Shown here piece after piece: positions 2 to 36,930 of a stretch of DNA of 64,000 nt (the stretch's first letter is position 1; each line of letters starts with the position of its first letter). The DNA comes from Arthrobacter globiformis (GTDB lineage Bacteria > Actinomycetota > Actinomycetes > Actinomycetales > Micrococcaceae). A program made the translations under genes and the position numbers. Under the pieces are notes generated by a model. The model was not told the origin of the DNA. It was given only the letters and a program-made list of their open reading frames with translations, and did not search any database. Location: NCBI RefSeq assembly GCF_003261175.1, contig NZ_QLNP01000105.1, positions 124,001-188,000 on the forward strand. The letters run 5' to 3'.

Positions 2-253
2 CGACGGAGACTCGGCCTGGCCAGCGCGCTGCGGGGGTTGGCGCGGGACAGGGCAGAACTCACCGTCCTGATGGCGGGCCGGACACCGGATGTGCAGCTC
101 TCGGGTGTGATTGACAGGGTGGGGCGGGACTTTTTTGACCTCGCCATGACGCTGCCGGGAGAAGCGCGGAGGGCTGGCCGGGTTGCCGATGTGGCAACGG
201 TTCCGTTTCGGGCCCTGAGCGCGCTCCGGTCACGGCGCGGAGGGGAGCTCTGA
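2..253 (+). CDS. C-terminal end of an unidentified protein (5' truncated by window edge)
   Basis: The reading frame is open from the first bases of the window to a TGA at 251-253, giving about 83 residues with no start codon that must be used, so the gene begins upstream. The residues are rich in Arg, Ala and Leu with a short beta-rich stretch (VQLSGVIDRVGRDFFDLA) that resembles small LSm/SH3-like tails of actinobacterial proteins of unknown role. No catalytic motif or membrane segment is visible. It is followed by a convergent helix-turn-helix gene. I cannot assign a function. Codon usage looks native and the frame is real; the identity is unknown. Confidence 0.6.
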   Translation, partial: RRRLGLASALRGLARDRAELTVLMAGRTPDVQLSGVIDRVGRDFFDLAMTLPGEARRAGRVADVATVPFRALSALRSRRGGEL

Positions 254-300: not shown

Positions 301-516
301 TCAAACCGACTTGGACTTGGCCTCTTGAATCATGCGGCTTGCCTCGGCATACCGCTCTTCGATGTACTGCTCGAGCATCTTCTCCTCAACCCGCCACTGG
401 CCGCGGCCACCCACCTGGATCGCCTTCAGTTCGCCGCTGCGGACGAGGGCATACGCTGCCGGCGCATTGATCTGAAGCTGCTCGGCTACATCTGCAAGCG
501 TAAGGAATCGGGGCAT
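301..516 (-). CDS. Small excisionase-type helix-turn-helix DNA-binding protein
   Basis: A 71-residue protein. Residues 5-44 form an excisionase/MerR-like winged helix: TLADVAEQLQI, then a recognition helix around AAYALVRSGELKA and a wing containing GGRGQWRV. Residues 45-71 are a charged helical tail. This fold is shared by phage Xis proteins and by chromosomal regulators such as BldC. No integrase or prophage gene is nearby, so a chromosomal regulator is more likely. The ATG at 516 is chosen because the domain starts at once; the frame stays open upstream without coding character. It is divergent from the cpaB-like gene, and a TTATCCACA box lies between them, which makes it a candidate regulator of the pilus genes (inference). 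Confidence 0.75.
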   Translation of the reverse strand: MPRFLTLADVAEQLQINAPAAYALVRSGELKAIQVGGRGQWRVEEKMLEQYIEERYAEASRMIQEAKSKSV

Positions 517-553: not shown

Positions 554-562
554 TTATCCACA
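554..562 (+). promoter_or_regulatory. TTATCCACA box ahead of the cpaB-like gene
   Basis: The 9-mer TTATCCACA lies about 107 bp upstream of the cpaB-like start and 38 bp upstream of the divergent HTH gene. The same 9-mer in the same orientation precedes cpaF (35603-35611) and the FHA/FtsK gene (14437-14445, minus strand). It equals the classical DnaA-box consensus, so DnaA or an unknown pilus regulator could bind it. The sequence match is certain; its function is inference. Confidence 0.45.
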
Positions 563-669
563 GTTTGATGTTGTTTGCCTGAATACCTTTCCGATTGGGC
601 AGGCATGCCGTAACAATGATCATGACCGGCGCGATTGAAGCGCCCAGGCGCCAAGGGGGAGCAGTACGC

Positions 670-1314
670 ATGAGTGGAAGCACGGCGGCGACCGGAGCCC
701 GGCTGAAGAAGCCTTCCTGGAAGGACCCGAGGCTTCTGGTGGGCGTGCTCCTTGTCCTCGCCTCCGTTGTCGGAGTCGTTGCACTCGTCGGCAGCGCGGA
801 TCGGACCACAGAGGTGTTCGCCGCCCGTGAGGCGATCGCAGTCGGTCAGAAACTCACCCCTGAAAACATCGGCCGCGTGAAGGTGCGCCTGGGCGACGTC
901 GAAGCGCACTATGTCACAGCGGCGTCTGGCGTTCCCGATGGCCAGGTGGCGGTCCAGCGGATTGCCAAGGACCAGTTGGTTCCCCGTGAAAGCCTGGGCA
1001 GTGTCGACGCACTGGACCGGAAACCCGTGGCCGTCACGGTTCAGGAGGCCTTGCCGGAGCAGGCCGTTGCGGGCACCCGGGTTGACGTCTGGGTCTCCAT
1101 GCCCGACGCCCGGAACGGTTTTGCCGAACCGAAGCTGCTGCTCCCGGGCGCAGAGATCGCAGAGGTCTCACAAGGATCCACCGCCCTTGGCGCTTCGAAA
1201 TCGACGGTCCTGATGGTTCTGGTGGGAAACGAGCAGATGGCCTCCCTCCTCGGCGCGCAGGCGAACGAAGCCAAAATCTCCGTAGTGTGGAATCCCGGCG
1301 GGGCCGCCAAGTGA
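670..1314 (+). CDS. cpaB: CpaB/RcpC-like SAF-domain protein of the Flp/Tad pilus
   Basis: A 214-residue protein with a short cytoplasmic N-terminus, one membrane helix at about residues 22-44 (LLVGVLLVLASVVGVVAL), then a SAF domain at about 47-115. SAF domains are typical of the Flp pilus assembly factor CpaB/RcpC, which acts at the envelope with the secretion ATPase. The ATG at 670 is preceded by AAGGGGGA about 9 nt upstream; an in-frame ATG at 595 lacks such a site. The stop codon overlaps the GTG of the next gene (TadZ-like), implying translational coupling. The ATPase, platform and pilin genes are not here but at 35.7-40.5 kb. The family assignment is good; the exact role in the pilus is inferred from the partner genes. 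Confidence 0.8.
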   Translation: MSGSTAATGARLKKPSWKDPRLLVGVLLVLASVVGVVALVGSADRTTEVFAAREAIAVGQKLTPENIGRVKVRLGDVEAHYVTAASGVPDGQVAVQRIAKDQLVPRESLGSVDALDRKPVAVTVQEALPEQAVAGTRVDVWVSMPDARNGFAEPKLLLPGAEIAEVSQGSTALGASKSTVLMVLVGNEQMASLLGAQANEAKISVVWNPGGAAK

Positions 1315-2639
1315 GTATTCCGGTTGTCACCGTCGGCGAGTCGCAGGAAGATCTGGTGGGCGGACTGGAGCGGCTCCACGGTCCCGTCACAGTAGTCCGG
1401 CGCTGCGCGGAACTCGCAGAACTGCTGGCTGCCTGCCAGAGCGGGCTCGCCCGGGCAGCTGTTGTAGCCGAGGGAAGTCAGGACCTGACTGCATCGCTGG
1501 TGGACAGGCTCGCCGCAGTAGGCGTAGTGATCATTGCCCTGACCGACAGCCCTGAGGAGCGATTGAGGCTCCGCGGGATCGGAGTCACCGCGGCGCCTCT
1601 GACCGTTGAATCCACAGCCCTGGCGGAGAGCATTGCCGACGCCGTAGGCAGGCACGCGAGCTCGAGCCCGGCAGGGCTGACTCCCGGCGGCGGTCCCGGT
1701 TACAGCACGGGTTTCGCGGATGCCGGTGCGGCCCTGCGCCCGGAGGCTGACGACGCCGAATCGGAGCCGGTTCCTGTCGGAACCGGCAGGGTTCTGGCGG
1801 TGTGGGGGCCGGCCGGTGCACCCGGCAGAACACTGGTTGCCGTCAACGTCGCGGGGGAGCTGGCTGCGGAAGGCAAGTCCGTCCTGCTGGTCGACGCCGA
1901 CAGCTACGGGGCCAGTGTCGCGGGCGTCCTCGGGCTGCTCGACGACGCGGCGGGTCTGGCGCAGGCCTGCCGGCTGGCCGACCAGGGCCTCCTGGACAGG
2001 GAAGCACTGCTCCGTGTCGCCGTACCGGTTACTGCCACATCCGGGACTTTCCGGGTTCTGACCGGAATTACGCGGGCCGACCGCTGGACCGAGCTGCGGG
2101 CGGCCGCGCTGGCGCTGGTTCTGGACCGGGCGCGGGAAGTGGCCGACTTCATCGTGGTCGACGCCGGCTTCTGCCTTGAGGCCGACGAAGAGCTGAGTTT
2201 CGACACGATGGCACCGCGACGCAACGCCGCGACGCTCAGGAGCCTGGAGCTGGCCGATACCGTGATCGCGGTTGGCGCTGCAGACCCGGTCGGTGTTCCC
2301 CGCATGGTCAGGGGGCTGGCGGAGCTCGAAGGTGCAGTGCCGGGGGTGCGCCCCGAGGTGGTGCTAAACAAAGTGCGGGCCTCGGCTGTGGGCCGCTCAC
2401 CGGAACGTCAGCTCCGCGAGGCGTGGGACCGGTTTGGCCCGTCGGCGAGCATTAAAGCCTTCCTTCCGTGGGACCCTGGTGCAACAGACGCAGCGCTGCA
2501 ATCCGGTTCGTTGTTGCTGGAATCGGCTCCGGACTCCCGACTTCGTTCGGCGATTGCGGAATTGGTTTGTGCACCTGTCCAGCAAAAACGCCGATCCTCT
2601 GTGTTCTCCTCCACAGCAAGGCGCAGGCTGACGGGCTAG
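1311..2639 (+). CDS. tadZ: TadZ/CpaE-like ParA/MinD-family ATPase
   Basis: A 442-residue protein. Residues 1-110 resemble the receiver-like N-terminal domain of CpaE/TadZ proteins, and about 160-420 form a MinD/ParA-type domain with LLVDADSYG (Walker A' region) and FIVVDAG (Walker B). TadZ localises Flp pilus assembly at the cell pole. The expected deviant Walker A reads GPAGAPGRT, so the usual P-loop lysine is Arg and the preceding signature lysine is also missing; ATP binding may be altered. The GTG at 1311 overlaps the stop of the cpaB-like gene (GTGA). No further pilus gene follows: a glutamate dehydrogenase comes next. The family is well supported; the name rests on context. Confidence 0.8.
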   Translation: MSIPVVTVGESQEDLVGGLERLHGPVTVVRRCAELAELLAACQSGLARAAVVAEGSQDLTASLVDRLAAVGVVIIALTDSPEERLRLRGIGVTAAPLTVESTALAESIADAVGRHASSSPAGLTPGGGPGYSTGFADAGAALRPEADDAESEPVPVGTGRVLAVWGPAGAPGRTLVAVNVAGELAAEGKSVLLVDADSYGASVAGVLGLLDDAAGLAQACRLADQGLLDREALLRVAVPVTATSGTFRVLTGITRADRWTELRAAALALVLDRAREVADFIVVDAGFCLEADEELSFDTMAPRRNAATLRSLELADTVIAVGAADPVGVPRMVRGLAELEGAVPGVRPEVVLNKVRASAVGRSPERQLREAWDRFGPSASIKAFLPWDPGATDAALQSGSLLLESAPDSRLRSAIAELVCAPVQQKRRSSVFSSTARRRLTG

Positions 2640-9633: not shown

Positions 9634-10131
9634 GTGTCAAGACCCCCAGAAGACCCGTCCGACCCGTTCGCTGATACCGGAGACGGCGGACTGCCGGAGG
9701 ACCAGGCCTCTGCGGGCACGGATCCTTCGAGTCTCGTCCGTCCCCGCGCCGTCGCCGTGATCTCTGGGATCGTGGCAGCCGAGGCCACGGCCCTGCTGGG
9801 CACAGCAGCCTGGTACGGATTTCAGCTGGCCACCGGTGCGCCTGTCATGTCGTTTTGGGGTGCCGTTTTCACGCTCGCCCTGCTCCTGGCCTTTGCGTCG
9901 TGGCTGTATGCCGTTGCCGTGTTCCTGTTCCGGGGCTTCCGCTGGCCGAGGGCCGGTGCCCTGGTGGCCCAGCTGTTCGTGCTGACCATTGGCTTCCCCA
10001 CGCTCACCGGCGGATTGCCGGCGGCCGGCGCCGCGATGCTGATCCCGGCCGCCACGGCCATCGTCCTGCTGTTCGACAAGCGCGTGATCCGCTTCGCCTC
10101 CCGCGCCGCTTCCGCTCCGCCGGCACTCTAA
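9634..10131 (+). CDS. Small integral membrane protein of unknown function
   Basis: A 165-residue protein with an acidic, disordered N-terminus (about 1-35) and four predicted membrane helices at about 38-62, 71-97, 103-125 and 128-150. The topology resembles small actinobacterial membrane proteins of unknown role. The GTG at 9634 is used; there is no clear Shine-Dalgarno sequence, and TAGTGT sits just upstream, so a leaderless message is possible. Its TAA overlaps, base for base, the TAG of the convergent FHA/FtsK gene (CTAA at 10128-10131). I do not recognise a named family with confidence. Confidence 0.7.
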   Translation: MSRPPEDPSDPFADTGDGGLPEDQASAGTDPSSLVRPRAVAVISGIVAAEATALLGTAAWYGFQLATGAPVMSFWGAVFTLALLLAFASWLYAVAVFLFRGFRWPRAGALVAQLFVLTIGFPTLTGGLPAAGAAMLIPAATAIVLLFDKRVIRFASRAASAPPAL

Positions 10132-13100
10132 CGCCTCCTGACTTTGTCGGCCACCGCCAGTTGGACGGGCACCGCCGTGCCGTCCGCCACGAGCAGGGCG
10201 CGTCCTGGCGGAGGATGGGGATCCGGCTCAATCCGCAGGCCGAAGATGTCGCCATCCAGCGCGCTGCGGGGCGCTATGAGGATGCCTCTGCCGCCACTGC
10301 GGGCTGCCATCGCGAGCGGGACACGCTGGATCAGTGACTGGCTGAACGCGGCTGAGAAAACTGTCGCCCAGCCGCGACTGTTCAGCTCCACGAGTTGCTG
10401 CTGGGAAATGGCAGGCAACATGTCCGCATCATCGACGAGGAGTATGGCGTCCTTTGGCAGGCTTCCTTCTACGGCGTCACGGTGGACCGCAGCCCAAAAG
10501 TCGCCGGGATGTGACGCCGGGCCGGGCTGCAGCCAGCCGGCCGCCAAGGGATTGAGCGCCGGCAGCGAAGCCAGGAACGAGGACTTGCCCGAACCGGCAC
10601 TGCCCAGCACGGCAAGGACAGCGCCTCCCGGCAGGCGCACCCCGGCAGGGGCGGGTTCGTCCCCGCCCATGCCCACCACCAGGCATCGGGCGGCTATACG
10701 CAACGGGTGGGCAGCTGCGGGATCTGATCCGTGCAGAGGGACGTCTGAAGCAGGCCCATCGGAAGCAGCGTCGCCTGAAGTCCGATCCGCTCTGGGCATC
10801 CGGGAGAGCAAGTCCGCCACAGAGAGTTGCACAGGAAGTGGATCCACGCGGAAGGGCTTGACCCGCACCGGCCCCTGCACCGCTTCGCCGAGGGCAATGA
10901 CAGTTCCGGAACCGGCACGTCGACCTCCTGGGATACAGAGCTGGCAGACCGCCTGGCGCCCTGCCGACAAAGCACCGGATGCCACGGCCCGGCCCGGAAC
11001 TGGAGGAAGGTCGGGCATCTTGGGCCATGCCAGCCTGCTCTCGGTGCTGGCGCCCCGCGGGCAGTAGATGCGGTTGGGGATGGCTGCAAAGAACCGCGAC
11101 GTCACGAGTTCCCGGTCGCCGGAGATCACCACGGTGATTCCGGCGCGGTGGCCGTCCCTGGCGATGTCCTGGAGATGGTCCTCGGCGCGGGTCAGAGGGC
11201 CGGAGCGAAGGGCCGATAGCCAGGAACCCCAGCCTGAAATGGCCAGCACCAGCGGCGGCCCGAAAGCTGCCGGGAGCCGGCTGAGCCGCCCGGACGCCTC
11301 GGCCGCCAGGCGCTCCAGCAGGCGTACACCGCGGCGGAGGTCGTCGAGGTTCACAAAGGACCCGGCGCGGTGCGCGCCCGCCATCCCCGCCAAGGACCCG
11401 TCCGCATCGAGGGCATAGAGGTGGCATTCCGTGGGATGGGCCAGCAGCTGTTGCATCGCCACTGACATGGCGTGGGCGGCATCCGGCGATCCTGCCCCGA
11501 TCAGTGCCAGATGCCCATCGGTTCCGGGCCGCCAGGTGAGACCGGCTAGCCGTTGCTCCTCGGGTAGGTCCAGCAGGCCCAGCCCTACGGCCAAGTCCCC
11601 GGCCGTCCCAGGGACGGCCCTTAGAGGGGCGGCGTTTGGAGGGACGGCGTCCGCACGGACAATGTCTGCAGGGACGGCGCTAGCCGCAAGGACGAGGCCA
11701 TCTGCGGTGAATGCGGCCATGTCGGCGGGATTGGTGAGTACGTCCGGAAGCGGCGGGGCCAGCGGACGGCGCACCGGAGAACCGCCCATTCCGGCCCATT
11801 GGGAGGCAGCCAGCTCCACCACAGGCCGGGCGGCGTCCGACGGGGTTGCCGGCGGAAGGCTGCCCGTGACAGAAGGCAGCGTCGCCAGCGCCGCGGTGGC
11901 CTCAAGCACCCTGACCCGGCAAGCCGCAGGGTCCTCGCGGGGGCTGGCAATGGATGCTGACTGGAACTCTTCAGCAGTTTCGGTACCCCTGGCCAGGTAG
12001 GCCCGTCCGGGCCGGTTGACGGGTATCGCCGATGCCGCATTGTTGCCGATCACGTCGGCTGACTCGTGCGCGGACTGCACCCGAAGGGCGATGCTCGTGG
12101 TGACGTTGGCCCGGATGTCCGCTGTGAGAGCCCCCTGCGGGCGCTGGGTTGCCATGATCAGGTGGATGCCCAGGGAGCGGCCAATGGCAGCGATCCTCAT
12201 CAGCGCGGTGAGGGTTTCCGGAGCGTCATCGACGAGCATCCGGAACTCATCGATGATGAGGATGAGCTGGGGGAGGGGCGGTCCGCCAGCAGCCGACATG
12301 CGATAAGCGGCCAGGTCAGGGGCGCCGGCTGCGGCTAACAGCTGCTCACGTGTGCGGACTTCCGCCCGCAGTGACACAATCGTGCGCTCCAGCTGGTTGC
12401 TGGCCAGGTCCGTCAGCATGCCGACGCAGTGCGGGATGCCAGTCAGCGGACTGAGTCCGGACCCGCCCTTGAAGTCGAAGAAGAGGACATTGACGCGGTC
12501 CGGCGGGTAGCACAGGGCCAGCCCGGCGGTAATCGTGCGAAGCAGCTCCGATTTCCCGGCACCCGTGGTGCCCGCAACGAGGACGTGCGGGCCATCCGCC
12601 TCAAGATCCAGAACACGCACACCCCGGTCGGTGCGGCCCAGGGGAATGATGAGTCCCGGCTCCAACCTGCCTGCCGCCCAGCGCTTGGCGGTCGCAGGAG
12701 CCGACAGGTCAAGGACATCGCCCAGCCCGCAGCTCGCAGGGAGCGGATGTCCGTCGGCCGGCATCCCAGGGAGGGACTGGCGGTATGTCCGGCAGTAGCG
12801 GTCGAAAACGCCGGACGGCACCAGGTCTGCAACGAAGCGGCGATGCCCAGCCCGCACCCGAAGCGTGGCCCAGCGCTCGCCGAGTTCAATGTCGGTTTCC
12901 GACGGCTGATGTTCCAGGCCCGGCAGATGGACCACCCGCCATCCGAGACCGCGGGCAGTTGTGATGATGCCGGCCTCAGGGGTGCCGTCTGCTGCTTCGC
13001 CGAAGAGCAGGAGAACGCGGGAAGCATCCGGTCCGCCGGACGTGTCCGTCACTGCCGCCAGAGTGTCAGGGATCCTTGAATGGAGTGAGACGCCCGGAAG

Positions 13101-14360
13101 GAATCGCGCCGCGAGCGGCAGGGCAGAAGCCGGTCCATGAATCGCGATCCGGGTACCCCTGGCCAGCGGATATCCCGTGAGCTGCATCAGGAACGAGTGG
13201 ACCAGACCGTGTACCTCCGGCTCTGGCCCCCGGACGGAAAGGACCGCAAGGCCAGGATCAAGGAGCAGCGGCACCGCGCCGAGCCCAGGGGGTTTGAAGC
13301 CCGGCTGGTTCGGCTCCAGGCGTATGTTGACCAATTGTTCAGCCAGGCCAAGCCTAAGCCAGACGCCTGGCGCAGGCCTTGGCGCCTCCTTGTACTCCGG
13401 CATCTCCCGTTCGGCACTCCGGCTGGTGCCGGCAGGGCTCCGCGCGGGAACCGCAGCGCTCAGAGCAAGATCAGCAGCGGACGGTGCGGACCGCCGTCGT
13501 CGATCCTGATCCTGCGCAACCGCCGCAGCGACTGCCGATCTGAGCTCGCGGCGCTGCCGGGCGCCCGAGAACACGGGGACAAGCAGAGACACTGCCGACA
13601 CTGCGGTGAAGGCCAGGAACATCCACGACCCCGTCACCAGCACCAGCCCCACACCTATGATTACGGGGAGAAGCGCCCCGAGGAGCAGCATGGACCGACC
13701 CGCCGGCACAGCCGGGTGTAACACGGTCAGTGGCTCGGCCACAGAGCTCCCAGCGAACGCGAGCTCGGCGTCCCGTGCCCCTGACGGCGCAGCCAGCACG
13801 ACCGACATGGACGAATTGCCGCAACGAATACGGGAACCGATCGCGACGGTTGTTTTTGACACCCGTTTGCCGTCGACCTCGGTTCCATTAATGCTGCCAA
13901 GATCCACAAGGGTCAGTGACTTATCCGTAACCTCGAGTCTGGCGTGCTCGCGGGAGAGATCAGCATCCGGAATCGTCAGCTCGGCGTTGGTGCGGCCGAT
14001 CCGGTAACTTCCCCGTCGCAGCGGAAGGACAGAGCCGGCCGCGGGGCCGCTGTCCACCACGAGGAGCACGGCAGCAGGAGGTTCGCCGGCCGGTCCCGCC
14101 CCGGGCACGGCGGCGTCGGACTCGCCACCGGTGGAAGGACCGTCCACCAGAACAGCCCCATTGATGAGGGGGCTTCTGCCGACTGTCATCACGCCCAGGC
14201 GCCTGCCCTCCACCGACAGCCTGCCGGTCTGGAAGCGGCGCGAGAGTTCGGTTTCCAGATCAGACCCTGGGCACCCGTCCGGAGCCGACACCGTCAGCTC
14301 GACCGGCCCGCCTTGGGATAGGGACCCTGGAGCACGCACCAGTGTGCACTGCAGTTCCAT
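10128..14360 (-). CDS. FHA-domain FtsK/SpoIIIE ATPase, EccC-like (type VII secretion family)
   Basis: A 1410-residue protein. An FHA domain (about 100-190, with GRTNAELTIPD, SREHA and GSINGT) is followed by two membrane helices (about 222-265). The first FtsK/SpoIIIE domain has Walker A GTTGAGKSE near 603 and Walker B LILIIDEF near 703. A second domain has a degenerate P-loop (GAGSPDA, about 955). A third has Walker A GSAGSGKSS near 1257 and LLVDDAD near 1310. The three-ATPase layout is that of EccC, the type VII secretion motor; the fused FHA suggests phosphothreonine control. The ATG at 14360 has AAAGG 9 nt upstream. No WXG100 substrate, EccB, EccD or EccE is in the window, so it is an orphan here. 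Confidence 0.85.
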   Translation of the reverse strand: MELQCTLVRAPGSLSQGGPVELTVSAPDGCPGSDLETELSRRFQTGRLSVEGRRLGVMTVGRSPLINGAVLVDGPSTGGESDAAVPGAGPAGEPPAAVLLVVDSGPAAGSVLPLRRGSYRIGRTNAELTIPDADLSREHARLEVTDKSLTLVDLGSINGTEVDGKRVSKTTVAIGSRIRCGNSSMSVVLAAPSGARDAELAFAGSSVAEPLTVLHPAVPAGRSMLLLGALLPVIIGVGLVLVTGSWMFLAFTAVSAVSLLVPVFSGARQRRELRSAVAAAVAQDQDRRRRSAPSAADLALSAAVPARSPAGTSRSAEREMPEYKEAPRPAPGVWLRLGLAEQLVNIRLEPNQPGFKPPGLGAVPLLLDPGLAVLSVRGPEPEVHGLVHSFLMQLTGYPLARGTRIAIHGPASALPLAARFLPGVSLHSRIPDTLAAVTDTSGGPDASRVLLLFGEAADGTPEAGIITTARGLGWRVVHLPGLEHQPSETDIELGERWATLRVRAGHRRFVADLVPSGVFDRYCRTYRQSLPGMPADGHPLPASCGLGDVLDLSAPATAKRWAAGRLEPGLIIPLGRTDRGVRVLDLEADGPHVLVAGTTGAGKSELLRTITAGLALCYPPDRVNVLFFDFKGGSGLSPLTGIPHCVGMLTDLASNQLERTIVSLRAEVRTREQLLAAAGAPDLAAYRMSAAGGPPLPQLILIIDEFRMLVDDAPETLTALMRIAAIGRSLGIHLIMATQRPQGALTADIRANVTTSIALRVQSAHESADVIGNNAASAIPVNRPGRAYLARGTETAEEFQSASIASPREDPAACRVRVLEATAALATLPSVTGSLPPATPSDAARPVVELAASQWAGMGGSPVRRPLAPPLPDVLTNPADMAAFTADGLVLAASAVPADIVRADAVPPNAAPLRAVPGTAGDLAVGLGLLDLPEEQRLAGLTWRPGTDGHLALIGAGSPDAAHAMSVAMQQLLAHPTECHLYALDADGSLAGMAGAHRAGSFVNLDDLRRGVRLLERLAAEASGRLSRLPAAFGPPLVLAISGWGSWLSALRSGPLTRAEDHLQDIARDGHRAGITVVISGDRELVTSRFFAAIPNRIYCPRGASTESRLAWPKMPDLPPVPGRAVASGALSAGRQAVCQLCIPGGRRAGSGTVIALGEAVQGPVRVKPFRVDPLPVQLSVADLLSRMPRADRTSGDAASDGPASDVPLHGSDPAAAHPLRIAARCLVVGMGGDEPAPAGVRLPGGAVLAVLGSAGSGKSSFLASLPALNPLAAGWLQPGPASHPGDFWAAVHRDAVEGSLPKDAILLVDDADMLPAISQQQLVELNSRGWATVFSAAFSQSLIQRVPLAMAARSGGRGILIAPRSALDGDIFGLRIEPDPHPPPGRALLVADGTAVPVQLAVADKVRRR

Positions 14361-14436
14361 TCGTGTCCGCCTTTCCGGGTCTTTGGTGGAAACGCTAGCC
14401 CTCATCACATGCGAGCCGACTCTGTATATCGGTGTA

Positions 14437-14445
14437 TGTGGATAA
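14437..14445 (-). promoter_or_regulatory. TTATCCACA box ahead of the FHA/FtsK gene
   Basis: On the minus strand this reads TTATCCACA, 77 bp upstream of the FHA/FtsK start and in the same orientation as the gene. The identical 9-mer precedes the two Tad pilus segments. A TTGACG lies about 12 nt further upstream and may be a -35 element. The function of the box is inference. Confidence 0.4.
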
Positions 14446-35602: not shown

Positions 35603-35611
35603 TTATCCACA
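35603..35611 (+). promoter_or_regulatory. TTATCCACA box ahead of cpaF
   Basis: TTATCCACA lies 96 bp upstream of cpaF, in the same orientation as the gene. It shares a preceding G, and a following TGCCTGA element, with the box ahead of the cpaB-like gene, although the spacing to TGCCTGA differs. A TAGCAT at 35640-35645 could be the -10 element. Function is inference. Confidence 0.45.
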
Positions 35612-35706
35612 TGCCTGAGTTTGTGCTTGGCTCACGGGATAGCATCCTTTAGCTTTAACCCAGATGTACTGCCTCCGCTGGGGGCGGCAGTCGTTCGGGG
35701 GAATTC

Positions 35707-36930
35707 ATGGATGCAGTTCGCATTGTCGAGGATGAAGTCCGGGAGCTGATCCGTCGGCGCGGTCTCGATCCGTTGCACCAGACGGCCGAGGTCAGGCGGC
35801 TCGTGGAAGCGGCCGTGACCGACTATGACGAGCGTGCCCTCATGGGGCCGCTCCCGCCGTTGGGGCCGCTGGAGTCAGCACGCCGGTTTGTCTTTGACGC
35901 GGTGGCCGGGTTCGGTGCCCTCCAACCGTTTCTGGACGATCCGGGCATCGAGGAAATCTGGATCAACGCGCCCACTGAAATCTATGTCGCCCGGAACGGC
36001 GAATCCGAACTCACATCCCTGACCCTGACGGACCAGCAGGTGCGGGACCTCGTTGAGCGAATGCTGAAGAGCTCGGGCCGGCGGCTGGACATCTCATCAC
36101 CCTTCGTGGACGCGGCACTGCCTGACGGATCGCGCCTGCATGTGGTCATCCCGGACGTCACCAGACGCCACTGGGCGGTCAACATCCGCAAGTTTGTTGT
36201 GAAGGCGACCAGGCTAGATCATCTCGTGGAACTGGGCACACTGACCCCTCAGTCCGGGCGCTTCCTGGGTGCCGCTGTCGCGAGCGGACTCAACATCCTG
36301 GTCTCGGGTGCGACGCAGGCGGGGAAGACCACGCTGCTGAACTGCCTGGCGGCCAGCATCGGCAGCCGCGAGCGAGTCATTACGGTCGAGGAGATCTTCG
36401 AACTGCAGTTTCCGCTGCGCGATGTGGTCGGGCTGCAATGCCGGCAGCCGAACCTCGAAGGCGAAGGCGAGATACCGCTCCGCAGGCTGGTCAAGGAAGC
36501 CCTCCGCATGCGCCCTGACCGCCTGGTGGTGGGCGAGGTCCGCGAAGCCGAGAGCCTCGACATGCTGATCGCCCTCAACAGCGGGCTGCCGGGGATGTGC
36601 ACCGTCCATGCCAATTCAGCACACGACGCCGTAACCAAGATGTGCACCTTGCCGCTGCTCGCCGGGGACAACATTTCCAGCGCGTTTGTGGTACCCACCG
36701 TAGCCTCGTGCATCGACCTGGTGGTTCACTGCAGCCGCCTTGCAAACGGGCGGAGGCAGGTGACGGAAATTCTCTCCCTGGGCAGGCGGGTCGAGAACGG
36801 CATCATCGAGTCCTCAATGATTTTCACGACGATCGGCGGCCTGCTGGAACCGACGGCCAACACAATGCCGGCGGAGGAGAAATTCGCCAAGGCCGGTTAT
36901 GAGGTCGCGGCACTCTTGGACCCGCGCTGA
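35707..36930 (+). CDS. cpaF: CpaF/TadA secretion ATPase of the Flp/Tad pilus
   Basis: A 407-residue GspE/VirB11-family ATPase that powers pilin assembly. An N-terminal helical domain is followed by the ATPase core with Walker A GATQAGKT at residues 201-208 (K207), the Asp box ITVEEIFELQF, Walker B RLVVGEVREAE and the His box GMCTVHANS. Flp pili mediate adhesion and, in Micrococcus luteus of the same family, natural transformation. The ATG at 35707 has GGGGGA just upstream. It overlaps tadB by one base (TGATG) and leads the second Tad operon. Confidence 0.94.
   Translation: MDAVRIVEDEVRELIRRRGLDPLHQTAEVRRLVEAAVTDYDERALMGPLPPLGPLESARRFVFDAVAGFGALQPFLDDPGIEEIWINAPTEIYVARNGESELTSLTLTDQQVRDLVERMLKSSGRRLDISSPFVDAALPDGSRLHVVIPDVTRRHWAVNIRKFVVKATRLDHLVELGTLTPQSGRFLGAAVASGLNILVSGATQAGKTTLLNCLAASIGSRERVITVEEIFELQFPLRDVVGLQCRQPNLEGEGEIPLRRLVKEALRMRPDRLVVGEVREAESLDMLIALNSGLPGMCTVHANSAHDAVTKMCTLPLLAGDNISSAFVVPTVASCIDLVVHCSRLANGRRQVTEILSLGRRVENGIIESSMIFTTIGGLLEPTANTMPAEEKFAKAGYEVAALLDPR

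Follow-up and report, generated by a model that had tools for sequence, protein, structure and literature searches.

The 64-kb window, the whole stretch of DNA that was analysed, carries the same 9-mer, TTATCCACA, ahead of two Tad pilus segments and ahead of a gene for an ATPase with FHA and FtsK domains. The question raised by this locus is what one short word does in front of such different genes. The original prediction was that it joined the pilus and an EccC-like motor into one regulon, and it noted correctly that the 9-mer is the textbook DnaA box, giving a link to replication state as the alternative.

The 9-mer in the window and its genome

Exactly three copies of TTATCCACA were found in the window, at the places first described (Table 1), and all three were co-oriented with the gene downstream. 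The rarity claimed for the word was borne out by dinucleotide shuffles of the window, which gave a mean of 0.08 copies and reached three copies in 0 of 100 trials. The distance of 107 bp to the cpaB start codon (ATG 670) was correct, whereas the distances of 96 and 77 bp given for the other two genes were each off by one; the box lies 95 bp from the cpaF ATG (35707) and 76 bp from the FHA/FtsK ATG (14360).

Table 1. Coordinates of the boxes, -10 elements and adjoining genes in the window.
Feature	Position	Strand	Remark
TTATCCACA box of the cpaF promoter	35603..35611	+	Looser form kept at 73 of 80 named cpaF loci
-10 element TAGCTT, 38 bp after the cpaF box	35650..35655	+	
cpaF/TadA pilus ATPase gene	35707..36930	+	TIGR03819 268 bits, below the cut-off of 373
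TTATCCACA box of the FHA/FtsK promoter	14437..14445	-	
-10 element TAGCGT, 39 bp after the FHA/FtsK box	14392..14397	-	
FHA/FtsK gene (P0001), FHA and FtsK/SpoIIIE domains, EssC/EccC-like	10128..14360	-	
TTATCCACA box between the divergent HTH_17 and cpaB genes	554..562	+	No TANNNT or NANNNT at 38-40 bp
TAACAAT, possible cpaB -10, 48 bp after the box	611..617	+	Counted by eye; putative assignment
cpaB-like gene, SAF domain	670..1314	+	SAF 21.4 bits, cut-off 21
ORF downstream of cpaB, cpaE/TadZ-like by position only	1287..2639	+	Putative name, from the arrangement in PMC8467076
HTH_17/excisionase-family DNA-binding protein (P0002), divergent from cpaB	301..516	-	

In the whole genome, 36 copies of TTATCCACA were counted in 4.88 Mb (88 contigs), compared with two of the reversed word. 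A loose -10 hexamer (NANNNT) stood 38 to 40 bp after 15 of the 36 copies and was missing from the other 21; the fit was found for 11 of the 12 copies with T as the next base and for 4 of the 24 others (Fisher p = 2e-5), on a background of 8.5% per place. Random placement, against which the original prediction was to be checked, is therefore not what the genome-wide count gave, since 10 of the 36 copies lay on contig C31, the home of dnaA, dnaN and dnaB, and the T-followed copies were enriched for the promoter fit.

Among the 11 fitting T-followed copies, one was from the origin region (L009) and one had no assigned gene (L017). Beyond the ten copies on C31, reading of the flanks of all 36 showed boxes ahead of recA, comF, a second cpaB/RcpC gene, ssb-like and DUF222-HNH genes, and genes for a WXG100 protein, an AbiEi-like protein and an M23 peptidase. 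CpaB and WXG100 were above their cut-offs and comF was named from a phosphoribosyltransferase match, the rest being recognised by eye; the AbiEi-like gene scored 21.1 bits, just under the Pfam cut-off. At the AbiEi-like gene of the window's genome and its relatives (L029, L046, L049, L050 and L058) the box was seen by eye to lie in the loop of an upstream terminator-like inverted repeat.

The extended word TTATCCACATR was present in 18 of 23 relatives. A T at position 10 was considered as a marker of promoter boxes as opposed to DnaA boxes and was rejected. It held in the window's genome but is suggestive at most, because T also follows the origin boxes of relatives (L041, L042, L048, L051 and L054) and the base at this position is G, A or C in other genera.

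Promoter architecture, conservation and downstream genes

The cpaF and FHA/FtsK copies in the window belong to a fixed promoter, which consists of the box, a spacer of 38-40 bp and a TAGNNT -10 hexamer and is often leaderless. The hexamer was found at this distance at the cpaF, FHA/FtsK, recA, WXG100 and second cpaB (cpaB2) genes of the window's genome; the cpaF box is followed at 28 bp by a further TAGNNT (TAGCAT). Searches for the box-38..40-TAGNNT pattern, in which TAG was imposed, gave 116 sites in 61 family genomes compared with two reversed controls, spread over 41 of the 61 genomes and 25 of 32 genera. The exact pattern occurred in 43 of 149 order genomes (two controls). Among the matches listed, the form with C, G or T at box position 3 was present in 84 of the 149 (nine controls) and the TTRTCCACA form in 95 of 197 class genomes (16 controls).

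An ATG stood 6, 7 or 8 nt past the hexamer at 19, 14 and 5, respectively, of 138 non-redundant pattern-derived sites, compared with 0 to 6 sites at every other offset from 0 to 39, any ATG being taken irrespective of whether it was a confirmed gene start. This peak is as would be expected for the -10 of leaderless genes, and a leaderless -10 would place the box at about -61 to -51 and the hexamer at about -12 to -7. No -35 element was visible in a profile of 123 promoters (135 before the redundancy filter), in which TCCAC and TA...T were imposed by selection; the box was preceded by a weak G, and a C stood two bases ahead of the hexamer. Near-identical box promoters occurred in at least seven copies each in two genomes, G030 and G075. 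A lipoprotein-like gene follows a box promoter at one G075 locus (L092), and the G030 box promoters also carry a PafBC-type TGTC[AG]GTG element.

Conservation was assessed in orthologue sets picked by protein, not by motif, with the looser form NNNTCCAC-N37..41-TANNNT. It was retained at all but 7 of the 80 named cpaF loci, the best 80 of 528 confirmed, compared with a shuffle mean of 0.9 (maximum 4), none for the reversed and one for the reverse-complement control. Because these loci are from related species (chiefly Arthrobacter, Pseudarthrobacter, Paenarthrobacter, Kocuria and Rothia, plus one Sinomonas and the anomalous L339), the counts are not independent. The contig of L339 is recorded as Vibrio cholerae strain 35D; its cpaF shares 71% identity with the Micrococcaceae query and has the box promoter, and it is probably contamination or a mislabelled assembly.

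The element was present in 24 of 30 WXG100 promoters (absent from 6), 15 of 30 comEA promoters (absent from 15), 13 of 30 cpaF promoters sampled across the order (absent from 17) and 8 of 30 cpaB promoters (absent from 22); the reversed core gave one match over all four sets at spacings of 20-60. At recA it was found in 14 of the 27 readable loci out of 28 (shuffle mean 0.22, maximum 3), and the 13 without it included 9 of the 10 of family f4. The comEA promoter of the window's genome reads CAATCCACA-39-TACCGT. In the order sample of cpaF, TCCACA was followed by TANNNT at 28-31 bp in nine cases versus 12 at 37-41 bp, some of the shorter cases reflecting promoters that have two TANNNT hexamers. 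In the opposite orientation (TGTGGA) nine matches fell at 20-60 bp, two of them at 37-41 bp. The promoter is thus found repeatedly across the order and in other parts of the class, yet it is missing from many orthologous promoters. Loss of the 9-mer from such promoters had been named as evidence against the original prediction; it was uncommon at the named cpaF loci but affected more than half of the order sample.

The cpaB copy departs from the common spacing. The HTH_17 and cpaB genes were divergent in all of the 30 best-scoring loci, and a box with at most one mismatch faced cpaB in 14 of these 30. The window's cpaB box was kept in same-genus loci, with no TANNNT at 38-40 bp. By eye, four same-genus loci had TAACAAT or TAAGAAT at 47-50 bp from the box, a distance longer by roughly one helical turn, and four loci of family f15 had the box 39 bp before CACGAT. 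The cpaB copy counts as a probable, though non-standard, member.

At recA, the box coincides with another regulatory element. In 10 of the 14 box-bearing recA promoters the same -10 also closes a PafBC-type element, and in L385, L386 and L387 the recA box is accompanied by a slightly different PafBC element, with the box 23 bp ahead of TGTCRG in L385. That the box is a general part of PafBC promoters was rejected, as it was present at 4 of 30 PafBC-type loci from 38 sites listed (a further box composite, in G230, was outside the 30). These four were recA, two unlabelled loci from a single genome that are nearly identical and, by eye, a RadA-like gene; one of the three recA promoters among the 30 had the box. 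Since the box is not general to PafBC promoters, it is an input of its own.

The genes behind the promoter include cpaF, cpaB, comEA, comF, recA, ssb, RecQ, DUF222-HNH, WXG100 and the EssC-like FHA/FtsK ATPase. With proteins of the window's genome as BLAST queries, and comEA taken from a same-genus genome, thirty family loci comprised WXG100 (5), FHA/FtsK (4), cpaF (3), recA (2) and DUF222 (1), with HTH_17 in two more by eye and 13 other or unlabelled. A second sample of 20 loci (5 from the window's genome, 14 from G154 and 1 from G002) contained six labelled genes, namely recA, comEA, cpaF, WXG100, FHA/FtsK and cpaB2; by eye it also contained two rpsF genes (the rpsF operon usually includes ssb), a RecQ-like helicase, two small WXG-like proteins, one RraA-like gene, one MFS gene, two DUF6318 lipoproteins and three TIGR02453/DUF2461 genes, a single member of each of the last two groups being confirmed. 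The DUF6318, RraA-like and MFS genes have no known tie to competence and count against a regulon reading.

Outside the family, 30 order loci gave cpaF (12), cpaB (1), DUF222 (1) and 16 unlabelled; four of the 12 cpaF loci were from one genus and two from another, and L097 and L117 were assigned by short matches. BLAST labelled DUF222 (5), cpaB-like (2), FHA/FtsK (1) and dnaN (1) among 27 new class loci, in which RecQ (3, one genus), HTH_17 (1), WXG-like (1) and kinase-like (7) genes were recognised by eye, the rest being other or unlabelled. Eleven stretches from genomes short of HTH_17 or cpaF matches yielded recA (2, BLAST), a cpaB-like gene (1, by eye) and eight other or unlabelled.

Several recurrent proteins were also observed. 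A conserved protein starting MGIRYYAYAF lies 60 bp after the box (L072, L074 and L044; L072 without a Pfam match), small WXG-like proteins follow it in two same-genus genomes (L184 and L196; L184 without a Pfam match), and in family f36, outside the order (L421, L422, L426, L428 and L430-L432), the box was seen by eye ahead of a large kinase-like protein.

The most unexpected part is that WXG100, FHA/FtsK and uptake genes have a promoter class in common. P0001 was above the cut-off for PF00498 (FHA) and PF01580 (FtsK/SpoIIIE). Its best NCBIfam match was EssC (TIGR03928, 244 bits against a cut-off of 778), and it did not pass the curated NCBIfam cut-offs, TIGR03924 (200/509 bits) and TIGR03925 (158/347 bits) included. 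The WXG100 protein passed both PF06013 (62.5 bits) and TIGR03930 (66.9 bits), and its relatives were found in 58 of 61 family genomes.

Candidate binders of the box

From the sequence, DnaA and another, dedicated activator with DnaA-like specificity are about equally tentative candidates for the binder, and the divergent HTH_17 protein ranks lower. If DnaA were the activator, the replication initiator itself would switch on DNA-uptake and recombination genes. The box is used as the same word in the origin region of the same genome, and TCCACA is the core kept across the box variants seen here. The box was kept at recA in 4 of the 15 genomes without an HTH_17 match, and DnaA is, to our knowledge, universal. 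According to the accessible text of PMC4285127, the high-affinity DnaA box is TTATCCACA in E. coli and others and TTGTCCACA, a form found at many promoters here, in S. coelicolor and M. tuberculosis; its final six letters are described there as integral to the box. However, the preference for T at position 10 in the window's genome hints that the binder reads a base beyond the 9-mer, and positions 1-3 vary at comEA and recA (CAA, GAA, CGA).

These same features, together with the fixed spacing and the other letters that follow the box in other genera, are what a dedicated activator would explain. No candidate gene was found for such a protein, however, and this reading requires another factor to have converged on the DnaA box.

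It is rather unlikely that the HTH_17 protein is the binder and hence the dedicated competence regulator, although its divergence from cpaB and the box facing cpaB suggest it. By eye, the box also lies ahead of its orthologues in L088, L089 and L415. HTH_17 was matched in 133 of 149 order genomes, and the recA box was kept in 10 of the 12 genomes with a match compared with the 4 of 15 without (E 0.001). In M. luteus, mutants with raised com promoter activity were almost all hit in this gene or beside it, but according to the available part of that report one mutation of the cluster, 13-M89, alone left com expression unchanged (PMC8467076). The four genomes with a recA box and no HTH_17 match (G091, G109, G126 and G132; loci L388, L410, L399 and L389) make HTH_17 a less likely binder, and in G132 a cpaB-like gene is preceded by the box as well (L379, by eye). 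The association at recA stems from family f4, in which 1 of 10 keep the box; outside f4, 3 of 5 genomes without HTH_17 keep it. As the association is mostly that of one clade, it left the relative standing of the three candidates unchanged.

Two further readings were considered. If the copies were plain DnaA boxes, serving to titrate DnaA or as marks of replication and without effect on the transcription of their neighbours, this would account for the exact DnaA box, the origin cluster and the 21 of 36 copies outside the promoter rule; it is very improbable given the fixed 38-40 bp to TAGNNT, the orientation, the start-codon peak and the recurrence of the box at the same genes across genera. 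Chance placement, for which only the low number of three copies in the window speaks, is a negligible prospect in view of the shuffle and reversed-word controls for the window, genome, family and cpaF set.

A proposed competence regulon and its relation to known systems

The reading that we consider probable, on sequence grounds, is that a dedicated class of promoters uses the box as its upstream activator site and joins uptake, recombination and WXG100/EssC-like genes into one competence regulon. From the box, at about -61 to -51, a bound activator would recruit the housekeeping polymerase to a -35-less promoter with a 38-40 bp spacer, TAGNNT at about -12 to -7 and often a leaderless start. 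Its targets would be the Tad pilus, comEA, comF, recA, ssb, recQ and DUF222-HNH genes together with the WXG100/EssC-like pair, and these co-driven genes would form one competence regulon with a predicted role in natural transformation. A common operator was found at both uptake and recombination genes, incompletely across species. The single regulon of pilus and motor that was originally predicted gained support at the sequence level and extends to WXG100, recA and comEA in several genera; what the prediction missed is that the unit is the whole fixed-spacing promoter, that the cpaB copy is off-spacing and that the gene set looks like one for DNA uptake and competence. A bolder and rather doubtful version is that in Actinomycetia DnaA, at a single box 39 bp ahead of promoters lacking a -35, directly switches on the competence regulon (Tad pilus, ComEA, RecA, SSB) along with a WXG100/EssC-like apparatus for uptake or for attacking neighbours to release DNA.

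The proposal can be compared with genetic results from M. luteus, as far as they are given in the accessible text of PMC8467076. Almost all mutants with raised comEA/EC promoter activity were changed in or beside the divergent HTH_17/cpaB pair; a single change in the HTH protein was enough to restore the phenotype, and no deletion of the HTH gene could be obtained (PMC8467076). Knockout of the cpaB-like gene lowered transformation 10^4-fold, mutations in tad-1 genes altered com expression or transformation, and transformability fell at least 1000-fold with a point mutation in a gene of the FtsK/SpoIIIE family next to tad-1, a mutation that in that text did not on its own repress the com promoter (PMC8467076). 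M. luteus is absent from the named loci, so the link to its competence is one of gene arrangement and not of P0001 sequence comparison. An FHA/FtsK gene beside cpaF, as in M. luteus, was looked for in flanks of up to 6 kb and rejected as a general arrangement, being found at 1 of 80 named loci (L361).

A 2026 paper, in its accessible part, describes the M. luteus competence regulon as currently unknown, with its upstream signals and cascade still to be identified (PMC12849477). No published motif, DnaA link or co-regulation of type VII secretion with competence was present among the open-access literature matches listed. The fixed-spacing operator offers candidate regulon lists in actinobacterial genomes and a bait for the regulator, and it makes a tie of the WXG100/EssC-like pair to DNA uptake testable. 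If DnaA is indeed the binder, one protein would be common to replication control and gene acquisition.

The element resembles the DnaA boxes of oriC and of DnaA-controlled promoters in its 9-mer and its core TCCACA, and TTA/TTG variants are known for DnaA (PMC4285127, accessible text); it differs in that the boxes here are single, co-oriented and 38-40 bp from the -10 of DNA-uptake genes. Sigma adaptation and a -26 motif are described for PafBC in the available text of PMC11804915. Like the box promoters, PafBC promoters are -35-less and have the -10 in common, and many recA promoters have both elements; by eye, however, the cpaF and FHA/FtsK promoters of the window and that of WXG100 lack the -26 TGTCRG element, which recA has. 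The RecA-NDp promoter of PafBC reads TTGTCRGTG-N8-TANNNT. With type VII secretion (EssC/EccC with WXG100), the promoter class has in common an FHA and FtsK ATPase and a WXG100 protein, but the ATPase is below the EssC cut-off and the comparison covers the ATPase and WXG100 alone. The competence regulons of other phyla are controlled through ComK, SigX and CRP-S/Sxy. As in those regulons, one short operator stands at uptake, ssb, recA and com genes; here the operator is a different one, the pilus is Tad and not Com, and WXG100/EssC-like genes are included.
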